Shown: positions 9,418 to 61,925 of the stretch, one piece after another | Position numbering within the stretch: the first letter of the stretch is position 1 | Layout of the letters: the number at the start of each line of letters is the position of its first letter | Source of the DNA: Liolophura sinensis | Lineage: Eukaryota > Mollusca > Polyplacophora > Chitonida > Chitonidae | DNA: 64,000 nt | Direction: 5' to 3' | Assembly (NCBI RefSeq): GCF_032854445.1 | Contig: NC_088302.1 | Span: 26,315,080 to 26,379,079, forward strand | Made by a program: the position numbers and the translations under genes | Notes under the pieces: generated by a model | Told to the model about the DNA's origin: nothing | The model's database searches: none | What the model saw: the letters and a program-made list of their open reading frames with translations, nothing else

Positions 9418-9560
9418 CTAACGAATTGCTGTTTTGCAAACCCGCCCGCAGCCTTCACTACAGCACTTCTGGTCAGCCCTACACTCGCTGTCCGACAGGC
9501 AGTTGTACCCCGGGATAAACACACAAATACCAACCAATCCAGATGGCGCGGGACATGCCC
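9418..9560 (-). CDS. WAP gene exon 4: WAP domain 2 and stop
   Basis: The acceptor is TTATTGCAG at 9561. The exon enters in phase 1 and codes one complete WAP domain, from CPAPSGLVGIC through DQKCCSEGCGRVC, then six residues and TAG. Eight cysteines are present. Its sequence is close to domain 1 (both contain KCCSEGC and GICxF), so the domains arose by duplication. Confidence 0.85.
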
Positions 9561-12500
9561 CTGCAATAAAGAATAACACGATATAAGAAGGACAGATTGA
9601 TGTTAGGTGGGCCGAATTGCTTAGGTAAATGATCGAATGCATGGTTAAATGATTGAATGTAAGACTGCTGCGTAATTGTGTGGCTAATTTACTAACTCAC
9701 TGGTAGGAACGGGTGTTTTGGCCTACCACAGTCAGAACATAATTTATCACAATGCCGAGCATTACGGACAGCTGTTCTTGAAATAACAGCAGTGCGTCAG
9801 GCAACACTCTTCCGAGACTGCTCTGACGTTAGTTTTGCCAAAACATTTGTTGGGCTAAGGATTACCGCAAACCAAGTCAGAGCGCGCTACATTTATAAAC
9901 CTGATGCAGTTGTCGTGGCAGTTTGTCATGGCGCCTTGGACCCAAAACCGAGGCAAGGACTCAAGACCAACTTAGGTCAACTTTTTGTCGTTTTTACTCG
10001 ATTAGCAAGGGTGTGTGCAATGTTGTTGTTGTTGTTGTTGTTAGAACTCTTTGGAAAGTGAAGGCAAGAAAAGTTATTGACTAGTAAGCCCTTTTCGGCA
10101 TACACGTGCATCCTTTACTCCTTAGGTTAACAGAAAAAATGTCCAGTGGTGAGTCTGCATTCATCAACTGTTTCGCAAATGTGGTAGCCTAATTATCCTA
10201 GAATGTCTCTGAATTATGCCACTGTATATTGAGTACTTTGAATTCAGCAATTCCGAAATGGCCAACGAACCTTGCAGTGCTGAAACCTTTTTTGAACACA
10301 ACAGAATCCTGTTTTACAAGGACATTTACCGTGTTGGCGAAGCTCTTCACTGCATGACGACACGGAAGTTGTGCGACTGCTTCGTAAAACAGACCCCTGC
10401 TTATAAAACCATGCATAAGCAATGAGATAAACAAAGTGTAAATCTGACTTGCCTGCATGATCTTGGACCCCCAGGGCTCTCTTGCAAACCTTGTTACAAC
10501 CTTCACTGCAGCACTTCTCTCCTGTCACAGATAAATACAATCATTTTTACAGACCAACAATCGTACAACTGTGGTGAGTGTAAATAGATATCACGCTAAC
10601 ACCTTTATCTTATTTATCAGTTGCCGACAACCCGGATTGAACATCGTTATAACTCTTCTTGTATGAACGCTAGTTTTAGAATGAATAAATGTGTGCTTGG
10701 TTGTAACATCATACTTAAAAATTTTTCAGTCATGTCACGACGAGGTGTCATTAGATGCGTGTATATACATCGTCTCTTCTTAGGCTGAGCGCCAAGCGAG
10801 GCAGCAACAAATGACGTTTTGAAAGTCTTTGGTTTGACCTGATCGGGTTTGATCCTGGGCCTCCCCGCCAGGTTACGTTAGAGGCTGCCATTCCCATAAT
10901 ACACGAACATGCATATGTTGTACAATAGTAATAGAAGTAAACTGTTCTTCAGCATGTTGTAAAACACCAATTACACAAATAAAAATCAAAAAGTACAATC
11001 ATAGTTTTCCTCGTGTTTACCACCAATTATCTCATCACAATCTACCAGGGAGTTCAAAACTATCTCTCTGTGAGTTTAACAGGTGTAAAACCTCACTATC
11101 CAGTCACATAATCTTGTCTGTGTGTATCTCTGAATCATTGTTTTTTTGTTTAACAGTGCCTCGTTACGTCAATGTTGTCAGCACTTACCTCTTCCCAAGT
11201 ATGTTCACCTTGGTTATGTGGTGTGCTGGTGATGTTCAGTGTGGTCAGCACTTACCTGTTCCCCGGGCAGTTCACCATGGTTATGTGGTGTGCTGGTGAT
11301 GTCAGTGTGGTCAGCACTTACCTGTTCCCCGGGCAGTTCACCATGGTTATGTGGTGTGCTGGTGATGTCAGTGTGGTCAGCACTTACCTGTTCCCCGGGC
11401 AGTTCACCATGGTTATGTGGTGTGCTGGTGATGTTCAGTGTTGTCAGCACTTACCTGTTCCCAAGTATGTTCACCTTGGTTATGTGGTGTGCTGGTGATG
11501 TTCAGTGTGGTCAGCACTTACCTGTTCCCCGGGCAGTTCACCATGGTTATGTGGTGTGCTGGTGATGTCAGTGTGGTCAGCACTTACCTGTTCCCCAGGC
11601 AGTTCACCTTGGTTATGTGGTGTGCTGGTGATGTTCAGTGTGGTCAGCACTTACCTGTTCCCCAGGCAGTTCACCTTGGTTATGTGGTGTGCTAGTGATG
11701 TCAGTGTGGTCAGCACTTACCTGTTCCCCGGGCAGTTCACCATGGTTATGTGGTGTGCTGGTGATGTCAGTGTGGTCAGCACTTACCTGTTCCCCAGGCA
11801 GTTCACCTTGGTTATGTGGTGTGCTGGTGATGTTCAGTGTGGTCAGCACTTACCTGTTCCCCGGGCAGTTCACCATGGTTATGTGGTGCGCTGGTGATGT
11901 CAGTGTGGTCAGCACTTACCTGTTCCCCAGGCAGTTCACCTTGATTATGTGGTGTGCTGGTGATGTCAGTGTGGTCAGCACTTACCTGTTCCCCGGGCAG
12001 TTCACCATGGTTATGTGGTGTGCTGGTGATGTCAGTGTGGTCAGCACTTACCCGTTTCCCAGGCAGTTCACCATGGTTATGTGGTGTGCTGGTGATGTCA
12101 GTGTGGTCAGCACTTACCTGTTTCCCAGGCAGTTCACCATGGTTATGTGGTGTGCTGGTGATGTCAGTGTGGTCAGCACTTACCTGTTCCCCAGGTAGTT
12201 CATCTTGGTTATGTGGTGTGCTGGTGATGTCAGTGTGGTCAGCACTTACCTGTTCCCGGGGCAGTTCACCATGGTTATGTGGTGTGCTGGTGATGTCAGT
12301 GTGGTCAGCACTTACCTGTTCCCCAGGCAGTTCACCTTGGTTATGTGGTGTGCTGGTGATGTTCAGTGTGGTCAGCACTTACCTGTTCCCCGGGCAGTTC
12401 ACCATGGTTATGTGGTGCGCTGGTGATGTCAGTGTGGTCAGCACTTACCTGTTCCCCAGGCAGTTCACCTTGGTTATGTGGTGTGCTGCTGATGTCAGTG

Positions 12501-15500
12501 TGGTCAGCACTTACCTGTTCCCCGGGCAGTTCACCATGGTTATGTGGTGTGCTGGTGATGTCAGTGTGGTCAGCACTTACCCATTTCCCAGGCAGTTCAC
12601 CATGGTTATGTGGTGTGCTGGTGATGTCAGTGTGGTCAGCACTTACCTGTTTCCCAGGCAGTTCACCATGGTTATGTGGTGTGCTGGTGATGTCAGTGTG
12701 GTCAGCACTTACCTGTTCCCCAGGTAGTTCATCTTGGTTATGTGGTGTGCTGGTGATGTCAGTGTGGTCAGCACTTACCTGTTTCCCAGGCAGTTCACCA
12801 TGGGTATGTGGTGTGCTGGTGATGTCAGTGTGGTCAGCACTTACCTATTCCCCAGGCAGTTCACCATGGTTATGTGGTGTGCTGGTGATGTCAGTGTGGT
12901 CAGCACTTACCTGTTCCCCAGGCAGTTCACCTTGGTTATGTGGTGTGCTGGTGATGTTCAGTGTGGTCAGCACTTACCTGTTCCCCGGGCAGTTCACCAT
13001 GGTTATGTGGTGTGCTGGTGATGTCAGTGTGGTCAGCACTTACCTGTTTCCCAGGCAGTTCACCATGGGTATGTGGTGTGCTGGTGATGTCAGTGTGGTC
13101 AGCACTTACCTATTCCCCAGGCAGTTCACCATGGTTATGTGGTGTGCTGGTGATGTCAGTGTGGTCAGCACTTACCTGTTCCCCAGGCAGTTCACCTTGG
13201 TTATGTGGTGTGCTGGTGATGTTCAGTGTGGTCAGCACTTACCTGTTCCACGGGCAGTTCACCATGGTTATGTGGTGCGCTGGTGATGTCAGTGTGGTCA
13301 GCACTTATCTGTTCCCCAGGCAGTTCACCATGGTTATGTGGTGTGCTGGTGATGTCAGTGTGGTCCGCACTTACCTATTTCCCAGGCAGTTCACCATGGT
13401 TATGTGGTGTGCTGGTGATGTCAGTGTGGTCAGCACTTACCTGTTCCCCGGGCAGTTCACCATGGTTATGTGGTGTGCTGGTGATGTCAGTGTGGTCAGC
13501 ACTTATCTGTTCCCCGGGCAGTTCACCATGGTTATGTGGTGTGCTGGTGATGTTCAGTGTGGTCAGCACTTACCTGTTCCCCAGGCAGTTCACCATGGTT
13601 ATGTGGTGTGCTGGTGATGTCACTGTGGTCAGCACTTACCTGTTCCCCAGGCAGTTCACCTTGGTTATGTGGTGTGCTGGTGATGTTCAGTGTGGTCAGC
13701 ACTTACCTGTTCCCCGGGCAGTTCACCATGGTTATGTGGTGCGCTGGTGATGTTCAGTGTGGTCAGCACTTACCTGTTTCCCAGGCAGTTCACCATGGTT
13801 ATGTGGTGTGCTGGTGATGTCAGTGTGGTCAGCACTTACCTGTTCCCCGGGCAGTTCACCATGGTTATGTGGTGTGCTGGTGATGTTCAGTGTGGTCAGC
13901 ACTTATCTGTTCCCCGGGCAGTTCACCATGGTTATGTGGTGTGCTGGTGATGTCAGTGTGGTCAGCACTTACCTGTTTCCCAGGCAGTTCACCATGGTTA
14001 TGTGGTGCGCTGGTGATGTCAGTGTGGTTAGCACTTACATGTTCCCCGGGCAGTTCACCATGGTTATGTGGTGCGCTGGTGATGTCAGTGTGGTCAGCAC
14101 TTACCAGTTTCCCAGGCAGTTCACCTTGGTTATGTGGTGTGCTGGTGATGTCAGTGTGGTCAGCACTTACCTGTTCCCCGGGCAGTTCACCATGGTTATG
14201 TGGTGTGCTGGTGATGTCAGTGTGGTCAGCACTTATCTGTTCCCCGGGCAGTTCACCATGGTTATGTGGTGTGCTGGTGATGTTCAGTGTGGTCAGCACT
14301 TACCTGTTCCCCAGGCAGTTCACCATGGTTATGTGGTGTGCTGGTGATGTCAGTGTGGTCAGCACTTACCTGTTCCCCAGGGAGTTCACCTTGGTTATGT
14401 GGTGTGCTGGTGATGTTCAGTGTGGTCAGCACTTACCTGTTCCCCGGGCAGTTCACCATGGTTATGTGGTGTGCTGGTGATGTCAGTGTGGTCAGCACTT
14501 ATCTGTTCCCCGGGCAGTTCACCATGGTTATGTGGTGTGCTGGTGATGTCAGTGTGGTCAGCACTTACCTGTTCCCCGGGCAGTTCACCATGGTTATGTG
14601 GTGTGCTGGTGATGTCAGTGTGGTCAGCACTTACCTGTTCCCCAGGCAGTTCACCTTGGTTATGTGGTGTGCTGGTGATGTTCAGTGTGGTCAGCACTTA
14701 CCTGTTCCCCGGGCAGTTCACCATGGTTATGTGGTGCGCTGGTGATGTCAGTGTGGTCAGCACTTATCTGTTCCCCAGGCAGTTCACCATGGTTATGTGG
14801 TGAGCTGGTGATATGATCAACACTTACCTGTTCCATGGACAGTTCACCTTAGTTAATTTTTTTATTTATTTATTTGATTGGTGTTTTGCGCCGTACTTAA
14901 GAATATTTCACTTATACGACGGCCGTCAGCATTATGGTGGGAGGAAACCAGGCGGAACCCGGGGGAAACAACCATCAGCAAGTTGTTGGCAGACGTTTCC
15001 GCGAAGAGGAAGCCAGCATGCATTTGTTTGATTGGTGTTTTACACCGTACTTAAGAATATTTCACTTATACGACGGCCGTCAGCATTATGGTGGGAGGAA
15101 ACCGGGCGGAACTCGGGGGAAACCTACGACCATCCGCAGGCTGCTGGCAGACGTTCCCACGAAGAGGAAGTCAACATGAGCTGGACTTGAATTCACCGCG
15201 AGTGGATTGGAGAGAGGCCACTGGATCATTGCATCGCGCTGTGCATTGTTGTGTACAAGTGATGTCGATGAGGCCAGCACTTACCGATTCCCCAGACCGT
15301 TCACCTTGGTTAAGTTGTGTACAGGTGATGTTAGTGACTTACCTGCCGCACATTCCGAGTCCTCCAGGCAGTTCACGTTGGGGTCGAATATACAGATGCC
15401 AGCAAGCCCACTGGATTGCGGACAAACACCCATACGGTCCATGGCGAACACTGAAAATATACTGGAAGTGAGCATCGCACAGTACATGTTATTAAGAACA

Positions 15501-18500
15501 TACCTGCGGAGGAAAACGGGTTTTTAACGCCGTACTCAAGAACATTTAACTTATGCGATGTCGGCCGGTGTAACGTATATTGTGGTAGGAAACCGGGCAG
15601 AGCCCGTGGGAACCCACGACCATCCGTAGGTTGCTGACAGACTGAAAAGAGGTTAAAGAATTTGGTCAAATCGTTAGTTATCCCATGAATATAAGATATG
15701 TTTAATCATACTGCATATGTTACCCTCAAAATACATATGTATCCTTCTGGATTGATATTGGGACCAATTTGTTTGTGCGCAACAGGTTTTGTGTTCGAAA
15801 TACATTATATATGCTGGCATTAAAGGACAAGTCCTCACAAATTTGGCTAAGGGCAACGCGAATGACAACACTATAGATGTTTAATAGAGGATATTTCCTG
15901 ATAACGCCTTTTGGGTGATGTGCCCTACTCCTTGCAGAACACGTGTCGCTCTGAAATGCTCGCTTTACATCACTGCCATCAATAGGAAGTTGGTACAAAC
16001 ATCTTAAGCGATAACGTCACTGAGGGCACCGTGATGAGAAACTTGAACCAATTTTACTGCTAAAGGCTGATTACAGGTTTGCACAAGGACATTAGTAAAG
16101 ATGCTAAGTCTAGACAAACCACAGAGGTTAGAACGATCAAGCTTGTGTTGTGGGAGCAGTGATATAGAACGAGCGAAAAATATTCACATGCGCTGCAAGG
16201 AGTAAGTGATATGCTGTGCTGGACCAGAAAAATAGCTTTAGTGAAACCCTGACGTATTAATTTCTGCATGCTGTCAAAGTTTTAAATTGGTTAAAAGAAA
16301 AGAACACATTTTTACAACCTACACCTTAAATGAAAGAGCTATACTTAAAGTTAAATAAAATATCTAAATTTTCTGTCAGCAGCGCGTATTATTTGAGTAT
16401 TTAACAGTTAAACATCGAATGCTTGGAAGTCTCTTTTACGCCGCCATTTGAACAGATTACACACGTTATCGTGCTTGGCGTTGCCCAGTAGCTCTTCAGG
16501 ACATGGCGTTCCAGACACATTGTGGCAGACAACAGCCGCGCATGTAGGTATGATGTGGCCCTCTAGCACATCCCAAACTCTACCTTTTCAAAGCTGGCTT
16601 TCACAGACCTTAAAATTAACCACTAGCACGATATAAGTACGTATTTAGCTGAGACTGAAAATGCACGTTAAACATATGGTAAGAGTAAAACCTGACATCA
16701 CAATGAATATTCAAGAGGAGGAAAAGAGGCTGTTCATTGGACAAGCCTGAAACATGGCGGGTCTATCAATGTGCCTCGAATCAGTGAATTTTGTAGAAAA
16801 TTACGATGTTTAAAACCGTTTTTCTCTCTTACGAAAATTTAAACAAAATCTAAAAAAATAGAATTCCACGCAGATTGTATAGCTCTTTCATTTAAGGTGT
16901 AGTTGGTATAAATGTGTTCTTGTCTTTTAACGTTTTTCTTCGTATGTAAAACTAATATATCCCATATACGTTCTAGTGTAATCAGTTTTTGTTATATTTC
17001 GGCAAGTTTAGAGTCCGTATTTCTGCCGAAGTTAGAAAGGCATTCTTCATGAGGGAGCGAATTAAAGTCCTTGTGGAGGACAGCTAGCACTTTGAGTTCG
17101 AATCCGGGTTCTTCTTTCCTTTTTATCTAGAAAATATACTTTTGTATGAGTAAAGATATAGGCCAAATTATGATAAATAAGTGTTACCACGAATTTCAAT
17201 TCCTGTCATTTAGTATGTTATTTATCTGATAGGTCAAGGGCCATTTGTGTCTAATACACACAAGGACATTTCGATTGTATGACCTACACATCATCCACAT
17301 GGGAATGGGCTCACTTCAGTGCCTGTTTAGAGCTTTAAAACGCACATTTCTGCTATAGGTGCAAATGAGGAGTAAACTAGAATTGAACAAAAAGAAGTGA
17401 CCTTGTGAATGTAACTCCAACCATGTTAGTTTGGCTTCTGAAGGTTTATTCATTTGTCAACAGCAAGAAAACTCTGAGTAGAATAAAACCACCCCCCTGT
17501 GAGTATCGTATGAGGATCACTAATCACACAGCTCTCAAGCGGTTTCTTCACGTTGCAAGATCTTACCAGAACATGGACACTGACAATGTTCCAGGGCTGA
17601 TCCCTCCCTAAACACATTTTTATGGCAGCGCAACAACTGCTAGAAAGGGGTGAAAACTAGTTACAACGTGATGAATACAGCGGTATGATGAGCTACATCT
17701 GCGTTAATAGTGACAAGATTGCGTCCCCAGATACGGAAGTTCTCTGAACTATCCACGTCAACCTGGGCTATTTACACTAATAAAGACATAAAACAAGGTC
17801 TTGCTGCTGTTTGAGGAACCAGGTTTTAACGGTGGTATTTAGCCGTGTAAAACATATAACACCAAAGCTGTTAGGAAACTGTATGTACCATTCGTTAAAC
17901 TACGAAACAATGCCATTCACCTAACAAACTGCTCACACACTGCGCCATGTATACTCCGGTTGCAATCTCTTTGCTGTGACACTTACCCTATCCGTCGAAC
18001 TCCCCTGGTCCAAGACACTGGTCCCCAGTGGACTATTTAACCACCAACAATCCTAAATACCTATCCCCGCTGACCTACTAGCAACTGAGTCAAATACAAA
18101 TGGGACTGTGCAAGATTTGCCTGTGGACCAATGTCATGTAGCCTACTTTGATTCACCGACTGTGGAAGATGAAAGGGATTCTGGCGAACTCCAATAGAAA
18201 CACGTGTTGTTCGCTTAACCGTAGCATGAATGTCATGTTCCACTGTCTTTTCTGGTGTATCTCCAATTTCTCCCTCCAGTGTTGCACAAGACGATTCCTC
18301 AAGCTGTACCCTTGCGTCACTCTGGTTAGTTCCGGACCCGTATTTATCTATCGTATTAAAACTTCAGTCAAAAACATTCAAACACATCTACAAATAGCTG
18401 TTTTGTTCTAGCCAGTTTGAAATTTGTACACAAACCTTTACTGCAGGACAATGTACTAACCACAATTTGAACTCACTCCAATTCTGAGTTTGGCTTTTTA

Positions 18501-20717
18501 AAGACTTGCAATTTATGACTTAAGTCTTAAGTTGCTTGATAAATACGGGCCCTGGTTTCCTATCTCCTGCTTGGCTCTGGTTAGTCCTTGCTCCCTCCCC
18601 TGCTTGGTTCTGGTTAGTCCTTGTTCCCTCTCCTGCTTGGCTCTGGTTAGTCCTTGTTCCCTCCCCTGCTTGAACCGTCCACGAACGTCCCTAATCCACT
18701 GGTACACTGATGGGTCATTCTTCCCATCGGGGCCATCACGAAAGCGTCCAAGGCGCACACTAGGCATTATCCATCGTGATGCACTAGGGTTGGAAACACG
18801 TTCAGTCAAAGCTGACACAGCATCAGTTGGTTTCTTTGTTCTTATAAGTTGTGCCAACTTACCCTTAACTAGTCTGGCCTCTGTTCCTGGAGAATTAGCC
18901 GCGATTCTAGCACGTTATAACGCCTCTTCTAGCTCTGCTGTCCTGGCTGGCTTATCTTGGTTACCCATCACTCTGATACTACAGCTTACGTGACGGTGCG
19001 AAAAGACGCAAGAACTGTATGTGCAACAACAACAGATGACTTATCTCATGCAGTTTACATGGTGAACTTGATAATGATCTCCCGTGTACAGGGAAGCCAC
19101 TAATAGCATGAGCTAACACTTACATTAGAACAGCTAAGCCTAACAAGGTAAGGGAGATAACCCTACCCACTGCAAGCATTTAGACACAGTTGGAACTCAA
19201 AATCAGCAAACTAAGCCGGGTTATTGCCGTATGCATCCAGACAAAATTGCACACAAACTAGCACCATTGTAGTCACCCATACATACAGATTCCACAGCAT
19301 TCACTGAATCTCTTAACTCTCTGTTAAACAATACCTGTCACAAAATTTAGCAGATCCACTGATAAGTTTCACATACTACACAAATTGTGTAACTCCGAAA
19401 AACGAAAGCTTCACTGAGACTCAATATTTCAGCATTATATTATGCCATTATCAGGAGTAATATTAAATGGGCAGCAACGAAATATGAATTGGACTAGAGA
19501 GTGTAGGCTTAACATATCTAAATATACATTTATCAGTAAAATAACTTGTGTAGTACAGTACACGTAAGATTATGCAAGCAAGAGACAACATTACACCAAA
19601 GGTCTAGACAGGGCAACTACCTGTAACTGTATCTGTCACCATCTAGCCAGGTAATCTCTAGTCTCTAATCTATAAATTACAGTAGGCCTACCTTGGAGTT
19701 TTCACACTGTCTTAACACTCAGTGTTCTCATTTTTTGACCTCTGAGGGTTAATTCATTTGTCGACAGTGGGAAAACTTTGAGTAGAACACAAACAACCTG
19801 AGATAGAAAGATAGAAAAATGACAATTGTGTATCCAGTCATTATTCTGTGTGTACTGTAATTGTGTACATGTTTCGCCATTAACCTGATGTGCACTGTAA
19901 CTGTTTACATGTTTCGCCATTAGCCTGGAGGGTACTGTAACTGTGTACATGTTTCGCAACTAACCTGGTGAGCACTGTAACTGTGTACATGTTTCGTGAT
20001 TAGCCTGGTGTGTACGGTAACTGTGTACATGTTTCGCCATTAGCCTGGTGTGCACGGTAACTGTGTACATGTTTCGTCATTAGCGTGGTGTGTACGGTAA
20101 CTGTGTACATGTTTCGCAATTAGCCTGGAGAGCACTGTAACTGTTTACATGTTTCGCCATTAGCCTGGTGTGTACGGTAACTGTGTACATGTTTCGCCAT
20201 TAGCCTGGTGTGCACAGTAACTGTGTACATGCTTCGCAATTAGCCTGGTGAGCACTGTAACTGTGTACATGTTTCGCCATTAGCGTGGTGTGTACGGTAA
20301 CTGTGTACATGTTTCGCAATTAGCCTGGTGAGCACTGTAACTGTGTGCGTGTTTCGCCATTAGTCTGGTGTGTACGGTAACCATGTACATGTTTCACCAT
20401 TAGCCTGGTGTGTACGTTAACTGTGTACATATTTCGCCATTTGCCTGTTGTGTACATACATACACTGTAGCCATGCGCGAGCGCATGTTTCTAGATTCAT
20501 AGGGTAACAGATTCGAAAACTAATTACGCACTACTACATACACCCTCATGTCCAAATGGGTCACACACATTTGATGGATCACACGGATAATGGTAAAAAA
20601 AACGATCAATCATTAAAGTACCCTACTTCCCGATGTTCATATTGCTACATATTACCGTGTTGGCCACATACCTGAAATGCCTGTAATTGTCAGAATAATG
20701 AACACCAACAGCTTCAT
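9418..20717 (-). CDS. Secreted double-WAP domain protein (perlwapin/antileukoproteinase-like), 4 coding exons
   Basis: The joined coding exons are 20672-20717, 15343-15450, 10453-10521 and 9418-9560: 366 nt, or 121 aa plus TAG. All introns are phase 1. Residues 1-15 are a signal peptide (MKLLVFIILTITGIS). WAP domain 1 spans about residues 22-67 and domain 2 about 76-117. Each has the eight cysteines of the four-disulfide core with the CC pair and the final C-x3-C. WAP proteins are secreted protease inhibitors or antimicrobials, and in molluscs some are shell matrix proteins (perlwapin); which role applies here is not visible. Domain 1 is split by the large intron 15342-10522, while domain 2 lies in one exon. 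The third intron uses a GC donor. The gene converges on the plus-strand gene ending at 9239. Confidence 0.85.
10453..10521 (-). CDS. WAP gene exon 3: second half of WAP domain 1
   Basis: The exon is 69 bp with acceptor TCTGTGACAG, phase 1 in and phase 1 out. It supplies EKCCSEGCNKVCKRA, the last four cysteines of domain 1, plus a short linker GVQDHA. The donor is GCAG followed by GCAAGTC, a GC-AG intron with otherwise perfect consensus. Confidence 0.82.
10688..10875 (-). mobile_element. SINE family B, decayed fragment
   Basis: Blocks TGTGCTTGG, ACTTAAAAATTTTTCAGTCATG and ACGACGA match the family B body at 43243-43582. A middle section is deleted: it jumps to GCTGAGCGCCAAGCGAGG. It lies in the WAP gene intron between exons 3 and 2, in the same orientation as the other B copies. 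Confidence 0.55.
11175..14850 (-). repeat. 66/67 bp minisatellite, ~55 copies, each carrying a splice-donor sequence
   Basis: Tandem units of 66 or 67 bp (TGATGTCAG versus TGATGTTCAG) run without interruption. On the minus strand each unit contains GGGAACAG followed by GTAAGTGCTG, a near-perfect 5' splice site, preceded by GTGAACTGCC. The same sequence marks the end of WAP exon 2 (GTGAACTGCCTGG.. and CAG followed by GTAAGTC at 15343), and a degenerate unit lies just inside that intron at 15256-15342. The array therefore derives from the exon-intron border. Higher-order copies are visible: the unit with AGGTAGTTCATC recurs at 12194 and 12723 (529 bp, 8 units), and the unit with TTACCTATTC at 12841 and 13106 (265 bp, 4 units). 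Long open frames on both strands are a by-product of the 66 bp period. Confidence 0.95.
14852..15013 (-). mobile_element. SINE family A, copy 1 of a tandem pair
   Basis: It has the tail TTTATTTATTTATTTGATTGG on the plus strand, then GTGTTTTGCGCCGTACTTAAG, ATATTTCACTTATACGACGG and CAGCATTATGGTGGGAGG, ending in a GAGGAAGCCAGCATG block. The tail at the left shows minus orientation. It abuts a second copy at 15020. It sits between the amplified minisatellite and its ancestral unit next to WAP exon 2. Confidence 0.8.
15020..15210 (-). mobile_element. SINE family A, copy 2 of a tandem pair
   Basis: This second copy is in the same orientation directly after the first, with the blocks TTTGATTGGTGTTTTACACC, CACTTATACGACGG, GGAAACCGGGCGGAACTC and ACATGAGCTGGACTTGAA. 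The head is degraded. Two head-to-tail copies suggest insertion into the tail of an existing copy or a local duplication. Confidence 0.78.
15343..15450 (-). CDS. WAP gene exon 2: first half of WAP domain 1
   Basis: The exon is 108 bp with acceptor TATATTTTCAG and donor CGGCAG followed by GTAAGTC, phase 1 on both sides. It codes VFAMDRMGVCPQSSGLAGI and on to DSECAAG, giving the first four cysteines of domain 1. Its last 40 bp are the source of the minisatellite unit in the following intron. Confidence 0.85.
15519..15645 (-). mobile_element. SINE family A fragment
   Basis: The stretch matches the family A body (ACGCCGTACTCAAGAACATTT, GGAAACCGGGCAGAGCCC, ACCATCCGTAGGTTGCTG). It has no tail and no head, so it is a truncated and diverged copy in the first WAP intron. 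Confidence 0.7.
16291..16930. mobile_element. ~640 bp inverted-repeat DNA element (non-autonomous)
   Basis: The ends are inverted copies. The left end TTAAAAGAAAAGAACACATT with CTACACCTTAAATGAAAGAG matches the reverse complement of 16870-16930. A second, inner pair is GCCGCCATTTGAAC (16440s) and ACATGGCGGG (16750s). No complete transposase is visible. The stretch lies in WAP intron 1. Confidence 0.6.
18338..18552. mobile_element. 215 bp MITE with GGxCCCGTATTTATC termini
   Basis: The left end GGACCCGTATTTATCTATCG is mirrored at the right as GATAAATACGGGCC, and both arms continue with ACTT..AGTC blocks. The flanks AACCAG on both sides may be a target duplication. No coding capacity. It interrupts the minus-strand ORF at 18061-18966. 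Confidence 0.6.
18567..18672 (-). repeat. 33 bp tandem repeat, ~3 copies
   Basis: The unit TCTGGTTAGTCCTTG plus CTCCCCTGCTTGG is repeated three times with a few substitutions. The period is a multiple of three, so the surrounding minus-strand frame stays open and gains an 11-residue repeat. Confidence 0.8.
19848..20446 (-). repeat. 40 bp minisatellite, ~15 copies, in WAP intron 1
   Basis: The unit is CTGTGTACATGTTTCGCCAT followed by TAGCCTGGTGTGTACGGTAA, with scattered substitutions. Pairs of variants (GTGTACGG and GAGCACTG ends) recur, which hints at dimeric higher-order structure. It ends about 225 bp from the signal-peptide exon at 20672. Confidence 0.92.
20672..20717 (-). CDS. WAP gene exon 1: start codon and signal peptide
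   Basis: From the ATG at 20717 the minus strand reads MKLLVFIILTITGIS, a short hydrophobic signal peptide. It then hits the donor TTTCAG followed by GTATGTGG in phase 1, exactly the phase needed by exon 2. The exon was missed as an ORF because it is only 46 bp. It was chosen because it is the only signal-peptide-like start with a phase 1 donor upstream of exon 2. Confidence 0.75.
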
Positions 20718-21470: not shown

Positions 21471-24220
21471 CTATGAGATTTCTCTGATAACAACACACAT
21501 GCAGATGAAAATACTGCACATGTATGTTCTGAAAGATTTTATTGGCTGACCTATTACCGAGTTGCATTATCTTTAATGTTCAGTTCAGTTAGGAAATTAA
21601 TTCCGCGAAGTAAAAGAGAACTGGTGACATTGTGCAGATGATCTGCCCCTGATCAGTGAGGTCGCAGGATCGAACCTCCAGTTCTCGCTGGTTAGGCTGT
21701 GTCTACAGGTTATAAACAGTGTTTGAAAGGTGTCTGGAGAATGCCGTATCCGGTGAGTGAAAAGGTGTTTTCACTATTCGAACCTCTATAACAAAGGCGT
21801 GCTGAATTCAACATCGACTGAAATACATTTCAAGATGACGAAACTAGACGATATATATAGAATGTTTTACATTTTGTTTTTAGGACTGAATTTGTATTTT
21901 TATCTTAATATATTGTTTTGATTTAATTGGATTTGACTGATTGGTGTTTAACCCGATACTCAAGAATGGGTGTAGGGAACCATCGAACTTTGGGAATTAC
22001 CGACGAGCTTTCCCACTTGTGACTTACAGATAAGAATACCATATTGGAGAAAGACAAGTGACGCACGTTAGAATGCGCAAACGGTTATACAAGCTTCGTC
22101 GACTGGTTAACGTGACCAAGGCTCCATCATCGACTGGTTAACGTGACCCAAGCTCCATCATCAGTGAGAGCTGCGGAATGTACATATTATATATCCATGA
22201 CCGTGAAGGAAACTGCACCACGTGAATCCTACTGTAAGACACCTTTACCATTCGGTCACGACCCGCTCACTATACTGTAACAGCAGTAGTAGTGGAATTT
22301 AGGTAGTGATAGTATATCTATAAGCAATGTCGGTGGAAATGGCAAGTTTACCTTTCCATACTCCAAATGTTATATTGGCACAAATCGTGCTTCCTCGTTT
22401 ATCAAAATAACAAAAATCAACTCTTCGAACTTTATCCACACAGTATAAGTCTATAGAAAGAGAAACGTGATTTTATTATGCATGATCATGAAGTTTTTGC
22501 ACACAATTTGTCGTTCCTGAGGTAAAAAAATGCACCCTCCATTAAAACGTTTAGACCACATGCATCAAAACGTTTGTCAGTTAACAGTCACTTGGGCTCT
22601 GTTCTTGTTTCGAAATGAGTAAGACCAAAGCCAAATGAATGACAGGCCTATACGTTTTCTGTTAGATAATTAATCCTATAAAAAATAAGGATAGCACAAC
22701 TAACACCGACAATACTGGCGTTGCTGCTCGCCAATATCATTCGTTACACAACAGTATGGACAGATACCCTAAACCTATGCAACACTGGGCTACATGTAGA
22801 TAGATAATGCGTGTTTATTCATAGGATGGTTTAGTTAATCGTGAGAAACTATATCACCAAGAGCCTTCAATTAAATATCAAAGCATCGTGCACACAGTGC
22901 AATTTTTCGTGTCGACAAATTCGAAAACAGGACAAACGCTATATCGTACAATTTGTAGAATTGCACAAATTGCAGCGCGGATGCGCGGCCTGTGACATAG
23001 CTCTTTCCTATGTTCGTTCTATTGGATGAATTCGACTAGTTTGAAATGGCCCCCATTTGTTTCAGTATTAACTACAAATGATGAGTTAATGAAAAGTATA
23101 TAAGTGAATATTATAGAGCACGGAATGACTTCCAAACTGAAATAAGCCGTGTATTGATTGCGCTAACAGCCTTGTCCATCAAAAACCTATGAATTGATAT
23201 AACATGCAAATTAATTCAAAATGTACCTTCAAAACTTCAAAATTTTTAATGAAGCACAATATACCAGAGAGAAGCAGCGAATACAGATAGCTCTACATTA
23301 CTAAAATGGTTGGTATCAGTCTTTTGCCTGTTATGTCTTAAATTCTTCAAAAAAGGCATCGGTTAAATATTTCTATATCGAAGAAAGTCAAAGAAATGCA
23401 CAGCCTGCATACAATATACATCCTGTAGTAAATTGTCCACTGGAAAAATGTAAAACTACCCTTGATGCACATTCACCATCAAGCAATGACAAATTAAAAA
23501 TTAGCAGAAATTATGTTGCCGTGCATTTTATGTGACGTTATCGCATCAACATAAGACTGGCTGTCATTTGACATATATAACAGGGCTTTATATAACCTTT
23601 CATTTCTATCACGTGATCAATCTTGATTCGCATATAGACTTGTGAATAAATTATTCTCCTTTACTCTCAAGCAATCTGGCGTGAACAAAATGTTAAATAA
23701 ACGAAACACATACAATCATACGCCATGTAAAGACTACACAAACATATAGAAGCTGATCATTGTATAAATAATTACATGTATTTACTTACGGTACATATAA
23801 ATAATTAAATCAACAAAATGATCACTTGTCATGTGACGAACATATATCATCGTACAGTTGTATAAATATTTATATCAAAATATTTAAAAAATTGACAAAC
23901 ACCCCATATTCCCATGTTTAAACAAAATCGGTAGACCAGCAGTACAAAAATAAATTGAGCAATACGTATTCATTTGCCATAATTGGTCTTTTCTTGACTC
24001 GTAACGCGTAACAACATGATCTCTGGTGCATTCACCGTTCATTCGCTAATATGTTCTTATCAACTCAGCAGACCAGACCAGCAAGGTGACAGGCTCAAAT
24101 CCAGCTCTTGCTGATTCCACTGTAACTTAATGTTAAGACTGATGACATGTGCTTTCGTTCTGCTGCAAAGCTTATGCATGAATCCTGATAAACCCCAAAA
24201 ATAACTACCACTCTCATGTT
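21471..24220. other. No gene recognised
   Basis: The stretch is AT-rich. It holds a truncated SINE-like end (GATTGGTGTTTAACCCGATACTC) at 21940-21975, a 33 bp direct repeat twice at 22095-22165 (CGACTGGTTAACGTGACC) and two tRNA-promoter-like scraps near 21660 and 24080. No spliced coding model could be built. Confidence 0.45.
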
Positions 24221-24224
24221 TTGA

Positions 24225-24346
24225 TATATTTATTTATTTATTTATTTATTTATTTGATTGGTGTTTTACGCCGTACTCAAGAATATTTCACTTATACGAC
24301 GGCGGCCAGCATTATGGTGGGTGGAAACCGGGCAGAGCCCGGGGGA
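24225..24346 (-). mobile_element. SINE family A, 5'-truncated, just beyond the SRCR gene stop
   Basis: It carries the tail (TTTA)n, TTTGATTGGTGTTTTACGCC, ATATTTCACTTATACGACGG and GGAAACCGGGCAGAGCCCGG. The flanking ATGTTTTGATAT on both sides (24216-24228 and 24347-24358) is a target-site duplication. On the minus strand its A-rich tail contributes repeated AATAAA hexamers about 200 bp after the SRCR stop codon. Confidence 0.85.
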
Positions 24347-24448: not shown

Positions 24449-55947
<31,499 letters not shown>

Positions 55948-60985: not shown

Positions 60986-61925
60986 AAACGGGAATACCAT
61001 GGTGTACATTCTATGACCAGATGTAAGCATGTGTCCACGTGACATGACGTCCCATGTAGCGACCGGAATACCATGGTGTACATGCTATGACCAGATGTAA
61101 GCATGTGTCCACGTGACATGACGTCCCATGTGGTGACGGGAATACCATGGTGTATATGCTATGACCGGATACAAGCGTGTGTCCACGTTATACAAGCTGT
61201 GGGCACATGTAAACATGTATCCACGTGACATGACGTCTCATGTAGTGACGGAAATACCATGGTGTACATGGTATGACCAAATACAAGCGCGTGCCCACGT
61301 GATATGACGTCCCATGTAGTGACGGGAATACCATGATAACAAGTTGTTATCAGAAGAAAAAGTGTACCCACGTGGGCGTCGACCTGTCTTCCTGTTGAAA
61401 ATAGGCTTACCATGACCTGTAGCTGTCATTACATGTAAGCGTGTACCCACATGACATGTCTTACCACCTAGTGATGGAATACCATGGCCTAACCGCTGTT
61501 GTCAGATGTAAGCGCGTACCCCACATGACAAGTCTTCCCACACAGTGATGAGATACCATGACCTACAAGCTGTTATCAGATGTAAGCGTGTACAAACGTA
61601 ACCTCTCGGGAATATCATGACCTAACCGCTGTTATCAGATGTAAGTGTGCACCCCACATGACATGTCTTCCCACATAGTGATGAGATACTATGACCTACA
61701 AGCTGTTATCAGATGGAAGTGTGTACCCACGTGACCTGTCTGGAATTCCATTACCTGCAAGCTGTTATAAGATGGATAAATGTACCCCACATGACATAAC
61801 CGCTGTTATCAGATGTAAGCGTGTACCCCACAGGACATGTCTTCCCACATAGTCATGAGATACCATAAACTACGGGCTGTTTTTAGAAGCGTGTACCCAC
61901 GTGACCTGTCCGGAATACCATGACC
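60986..61925 (+). repeat. ~75 bp tandem repeat, ~12 diverged copies, with CACGTGACATGACGTC
   Basis: The first copies read GGGAATACCATGGTGTACAT, GCTATGACCAGATGTAAGCA, then TGTGTCCACGTGACATGACG and TCCCATGTAGTGAC. Later copies vary in length (60-75 bp) and sequence. The early units contain both CACGTG and TGACGTC. Confidence 0.85.

Follow-up and report, generated by a model that had tools for sequence, protein, structure and literature searches.

The 64,000-nucleotide stretch of Liolophura sinensis DNA analyzed here (contig NC_088302.1 of assembly GCF_032854445.1, forward-strand positions 26,315,080 to 26,379,079; “the window”) carries a small WAP-domain gene on the minus strand, and three quarters of one intron of this gene is filled by a minisatellite of 66/67-bp units. 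We consider it very probable that this array is a “mirage,” that is, a minisatellite of an exon–intron border, in which the extra 5′ splice sites (donors) are passengers and the authentic, exon-proximal donor would be kept in use. The name “mirage” is reportedly credited to Canestro 2002. The border origin that the initial annotation had proposed for the unit held up, both in alignments of the unit with the border and in parallel cases elsewhere in the genome, and the arrangement is not special to the WAP gene.

The array-bearing intron follows exon 2, which ends in CAG and is followed by GTAAGTC at 15343/15342, as the initial annotation had read it (CAG/GTAAGTC; here and later, a slash marks the border). 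Exon 2 and the array unit have the stretch GTGAACTGCCTGG-GGA in common, amounting to 13 exact coding bases. This match, scored over a stretch that includes one donor base, reached 27, a score attained by 1 of 5000 shuffles and by none of 928 chunks of the window; the strictly exonic version was equaled by none of 2000 shuffles. A degenerate first unit (15256–15341, minus strand), continuous with the authentic donor, lies just inside the intron, again in agreement with the initial annotation. Its alignment to the array unit scored 86, compared with 29 for the highest of 5000 shuffles, and a genome search picked it up with 80% identity (E = 3.5e-12). The exon match and the degenerate unit together show that the similarity between unit and border extends past the GTAAGT core. 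Compared with the 80% identity of this edge unit, 26 matches within the array were 92 to 98% identical, which indicates that the edge was spared from homogenization. Exon 2 is probably the older partner of the exon/unit pair since it encodes WAP-domain sequence. A search of the 609-Mb genome with the unit gave at least 27 matches (counts from this search are lower bounds, common words being skipped), all of them within the window; because the unit is found at this single locus, and not at several, it is neither a dispersed satellite nor a transposon.

Exons 2, 3, and 4 of the WAP gene form one continuous open frame. Exon 2 (15343–15450, minus strand) contributes the opening half of a WAP domain, which Pfam matched partially (18.2 bits, below the cut-off of 20.8), and its start is placed at 15450 on account of an acceptor-like TTTTCAG. 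Exon 3 (10453–10521, minus strand), identified by reading of the sequence, finishes this domain, and exon 4 (9418–9560, minus strand) holds a second WAP domain (Pfam, E = 1.5e-10), with the same cysteine pattern by eye, and the stop codon. The intron between exons 2 and 3 (15342–10522, 4821 bp) thus interrupts the first domain (ECAA/GEKCC). Exon 3 itself, by reading, apparently ends at a GC donor (CAG/GCAAGT; 10452, minus strand). For the main array (11168–14812, minus strand), which had been annotated as about 55 units, Tandem Repeats Finder gave a period of 66, 55.0 copies, and 94% matches; unit alignment showed that each unit comprises exon tail, donor, and intron start. Two insertions resembling a short interspersed element (SINE), seen by eye, separate the degenerate unit from the main array (14838–15180). 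What appears to be one SINE-like repeat occurs in several copies in the window (14838–15180, around 15525–15640, 24217–24340, 25750–25985, and 44418–44620), some of them inside or adjoining minisatellite arrays.

The authentic donor of exon 2 (GTAAGT, 15337–15342, minus strand) pairs with U1 with a duplex energy of −12.1 kcal/mol, and the common donor of the array unit with −13.2 kcal/mol. The statement that each unit carries a near-perfect donor stands for the 41 copies with an exact CAGGTAAGTGC on the sense (minus) strand. It does not stand for 6 of 54 aligned units, in which ATAAGT replaces GTAAGT and the +1 G is lost, so that not every copy is a good donor. The related claim, that dozens of intronic donors equal or exceed the authentic one in their match to U1, was borne out: 43 other sites on the sense strand of the intron pair equally well or better, compared with none on the antisense strand.

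A second case in the window concerns a gene with an SRCR exon (30068–30249, minus strand; Pfam SRCR, E = 5.7e-11; putative 5′ limit), whose donor is at 30067. An 82-bp array of 14.5 copies (28920–30115, minus strand) consists of the SRCR exon tail, the donor GAG/GTGAGT, and the start of the intron, the Tandem Repeats Finder span taking in the exon tail itself. The match of the unit to the exon tail covers 67 nt, extends to the donor, and has a score of 68, which was reached by none of 2000 shuffles. In both the WAP and the SRCR gene, therefore, the repeats span an exon–intron boundary and the unit contains exon bases; the WAP array also has splice signals in its units and the spared edge unit. 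By reading, the SRCR gene continues in frame at 27754 with its next exon, probably a transmembrane segment. The same intron holds 84-bp arrays (27906–28783, minus strand; Tandem Repeats Finder), whose kinship with the 82-bp array seemed likely by eye and was rejected as not significant, 69 of 5000 shuffles reaching the score. An array at 60991–61797 (plus strand), with units carrying GAT/GTAAGC or GTAAGT, starts about 60 bases past a possible signal-peptide exon ending in CAG/GTAAAC (60931) and could be a third border array.

Donor arrays are enriched throughout the genome. Three copies of AGGTRAGT with spacers of 45 to 75 gave 2567 hits, compared with 1238 for the reversed motif (approximately 2:1); with spacers of 17 to 44, the numbers were 1801 and 892, and CAGGTAAGT at a period of 58 to 61 gave 58 hits, compared with 9 for its reversed control. 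The numbers of hits should not be read as numbers of arrays: of the 2567 hits, the 100 listed collapse into 18 distinct arrays, all in C1:0.3–5.5 Mb, where the control had 3 among the matches listed. This region makes up 0.9% of the genome and holds 100 of the 2567 hits, a density several-fold above average, so that the sample should not be scaled up; its high density is possibly a chromosome-end effect.

We sampled 24 arrays, namely these 18 and 6 from the CAGGTAAGT search (the seventh, L016, was already included). The sense 5′ side was read for all 24, and the alignment of the exon tail with the unit covered 19 of them (13 of the 18 and all 6). In 14 arrays (L004, L005, L006, L009, L013, L014, L018, L019, L021, and L055–L059), the unit contained the exon tail with a score above all 2000 shuffles. 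Since a non-coding first unit could pass this test just as an exon would, coding homology matters. Recognizable coding sequence was found in the frame entering the first donor of 11 of the 24 arrays, and 10 had both such homology and the exon tail in the unit; L020 has a fucosidase exon whose tail is absent from the unit. The homologies included ankyrin, antistasin, prominin, alpha-L-fucosidase, an Fe-hydrogenase-like protein, MED7 (E = 5.9e-10), RAPTOR (L009, 1.8e-15), a helicase-like protein (L013, 3.8e-11), SNAPC3 (L058, 8.3e-18), heparanase (L057, 1.3e-4), and DUF3535 (L014, 1.1e-5, just under its cut-off), and most matches end only a few residues from the donor. L013 and L014, at C1:4.19–4.20 Mb, presumably belong to one Mot1/BTAF1 gene with two donor-side arrays. 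Of the 24 frames, 8 were searched against the PDB (6 from the 18 arrays and 2 from the 6), with no match for L018 and L004.

Fifteen distinct arrays were obtained among the matches listed for the reversed motif. Pfam searches of their 29 longest flanking frames yielded nothing better than E = 0.08, a comparison in which control frames were the longest per end, donor-set frames were those running into the first donor, and the PDB search of the control was limited to L035. We nevertheless rejected these arrays as a clean negative control: L035 is itself a border array, with a methylthioribose kinase exon (3.4e-11), the donor AAG/GTATCC, and an exon tail of 52 nt in its unit, and the L031 unit holds a strong donor (−10.8). 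Because the control contains a border array, it understates how common such arrays are.

Arrays of the acceptor motif TTTTCAG were likewise in excess (1774 hits, compared with 829 for the control). Ten downstream flanks were read out of 16 listed, and for one array (L037, C1:2136463) an exon could be demonstrated at the end, that of RAPTOR (E = 0.0015); by eye, L043 resembles it. RAPTOR (C1:2.08–2.14 Mb) accordingly carries arrays of both kinds, L009 on the donor side and L037 on the acceptor side, and at L009 there is another array, of 54 bp, with CAG/GTATGT. Some units are mostly exon, the matched tail taking up 54 of 61 bases in RAPTOR (L009) and 51 of 60 in SNAPC3 (L058), from which it follows that the duplication there ends soon past the donor.

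Several of our observations weigh against an origin from borders, or against the donors being mere passengers. About 14 exon bases between the GTGAACTGCCTGG-GGA match and CAG/GTAAGT are absent from the WAP unit. The exon-tail test was negative for five sampled arrays (L010, L012, L017, L020, and L060), in the case of L012 with 852 of 2000 shuffles reaching the score, and two positives proved modest at 20,000 shuffles (1 shuffle at or above the score for L005 and 24 for L013). The choice of donor in L055 is a guess, no exon was seen for L008, L011, L015, and L016, and L007 is doubtful. Coding homology was not found for 13 of the 24 sampled arrays, and it ends 12 (L014) and 19 (L057) residues short of the donor in two others. 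Within the WAP array, donor positions +2 to +6 are invariant in the 54 aligned units, although other invariant runs of equal or greater length exist. Finally, that the first WAP donor is the one used is something we infer from sequence.

None of the effects suggested in the initial annotation (donor competition, protective U1 recruitment, or cryptic exons) found support. On a reading that we consider unlikely, the array donors would themselves be spliced, as alternative exon ends or in cryptic exons, and give rise to regulated isoforms or unproductive transcripts. The 43 donors at least equal to the authentic one speak for this, and the best AG of the unit, with 11 of 20 pyrimidines upstream just as at the real acceptor, leaves room for cryptic exons. 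However, the first cryptic donor lies 58 nt beyond the authentic one, and splicing there would shift the frame and lead to an early stop, while read-through toward the main array meets a TAA at that same donor. Use of any array donor would therefore break the WAP domain. In addition, lancelet mirages are reported, in the accessible parts of the two papers, not to disturb splicing (PMC3087553, PMC3902484). We therefore regard productive use of the WAP donor copies as unlikely. Alternatively, the array would have been kept because its donors recruit the U1 small nuclear ribonucleoprotein, whether as a decoy or to protect against premature polyadenylation (telescripting). The strand bias of the strong donors, the genome-wide enrichment of donor arrays, and the invariant positions +2 to +6 would fit such a role. 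However, border origin alone explains the bias and the enrichment, and the nine donor columns, considered jointly in the 54 aligned units, show neither excess conservation nor a sign of purifying selection. They have 1.56 variants per column, compared with 1.42 elsewhere, 43 of 58 nine-column windows of the unit are no more variable than the donor window, and the +1 G has been lost in six units. The protection from premature polyadenylation suggested in the initial annotation also fails on the position of the signals to be suppressed. The only two AATAAA on the sense strand of the intron, at 14874 and 14866, are transcribed before the array, and past the array there is neither AATAAA nor ATTAAA. 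A function through U1 thus seems to us very unlikely. That the array is an ordinary intronic minisatellite with a coincidental donor match is scarcely credible: the genome is rich in minisatellites, but the homology to exon and degenerate unit exceeds that of shuffled sequences, the SRCR gene of the same window is a parallel case, and coding homology leads into 11 of the 24 sampled arrays.

Most likely, then, the WAP array is a tolerated by-product of border duplication. A tandem duplication across the exon 2/intron 2 border would have produced a unit made of exon tail, donor, and some intron, and slippage or unequal exchange may have multiplied the copies within the intron. The middle part would then have been homogenized while the exon-side edge decayed. 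Exon definition predicts use of the proximal site, which is the first copy for donors and the last for acceptors. In this way, the spliceosome would most likely keep to the authentic donor, leaving the mRNA unchanged, and the copies would persist because the exon-proximal site is used. The same process would have acted at many exon ends of the genome and, in at least one case, at an acceptor border. The chances seem to us about even that minisatellites have arisen again and again at exon ends in this genome, with very many independently born arrays adding to intron length and exon definition preserving the mRNA; border minisatellites would in that case be a general force of intron growth outside chordates, and no peculiarity of lancelets.

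Introns of the WAP type are natural tests of how the spliceosome settles on one donor when dozens nearby are just as good or better; if the first donor is used, the strength of the match cannot be the deciding factor. Border arrays also suggest a route for intron growth and a bulk supply of new splice sites. Should the pattern hold in related species, it would offer border duplications in a dated series from which to study the birth of minisatellites, a process so far described, in the sources as accessible, for a few lancelet genes. WAP paralogs were tried as stand-ins for orthologs and discarded, matches outside this gene being weak (33–51%).

The comparisons below go by the accessible parts of the papers cited. 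Mirages have been described in amphioxus for Adh3 and the globins BflGb6 and BflGb9 (PMC3087553) and for lancelet TnC, similar repeats being known from PGBD5 (PMC3902484). They have in common with the WAP and SRCR arrays a minisatellite-like tandem duplication of the exon–intron boundary, with splice signals in many units; in both animals, moreover, edge units are spared from homogenization and both 5′ and 3′ borders are affected. In contrast, the arrays in the L. sinensis genome occur at many loci, with donors counted against controls, and the WAP intron has 55 units, compared with 6 and 3 in two BflGb6 haplotypes. The amphioxus globin mirages come with reverse-transcription PCR, whereas the WAP and SRCR arrays are known from sequence alone. 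Internal tandem repeats in human segmental duplications likewise involve minisatellite expansion at exon–intron boundaries, but those repeats change exons or give rise to new introns, as supported by transcripts, whereas here the copies lie inside an existing intron behind an intact donor (PMC2812944). Abalone offers another minisatellite in a mollusc intron, the length-variable 27-bp repeat in intron 3 of a TSSK1-like gene, but unlike the WAP array, its consensus lacks GTRAGT in either direction and a border origin is not claimed (PMC6905558); nor is such an origin described for the earthworm metallothionein repeats. No report of border minisatellites in a mollusc was found in titles and abstract beginnings of the open literature, which is weak evidence, most subscription papers being outside this scope. 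The kind of array is already known from the amphioxus mirages; what is new is its presence at many loci in the genome of another animal.

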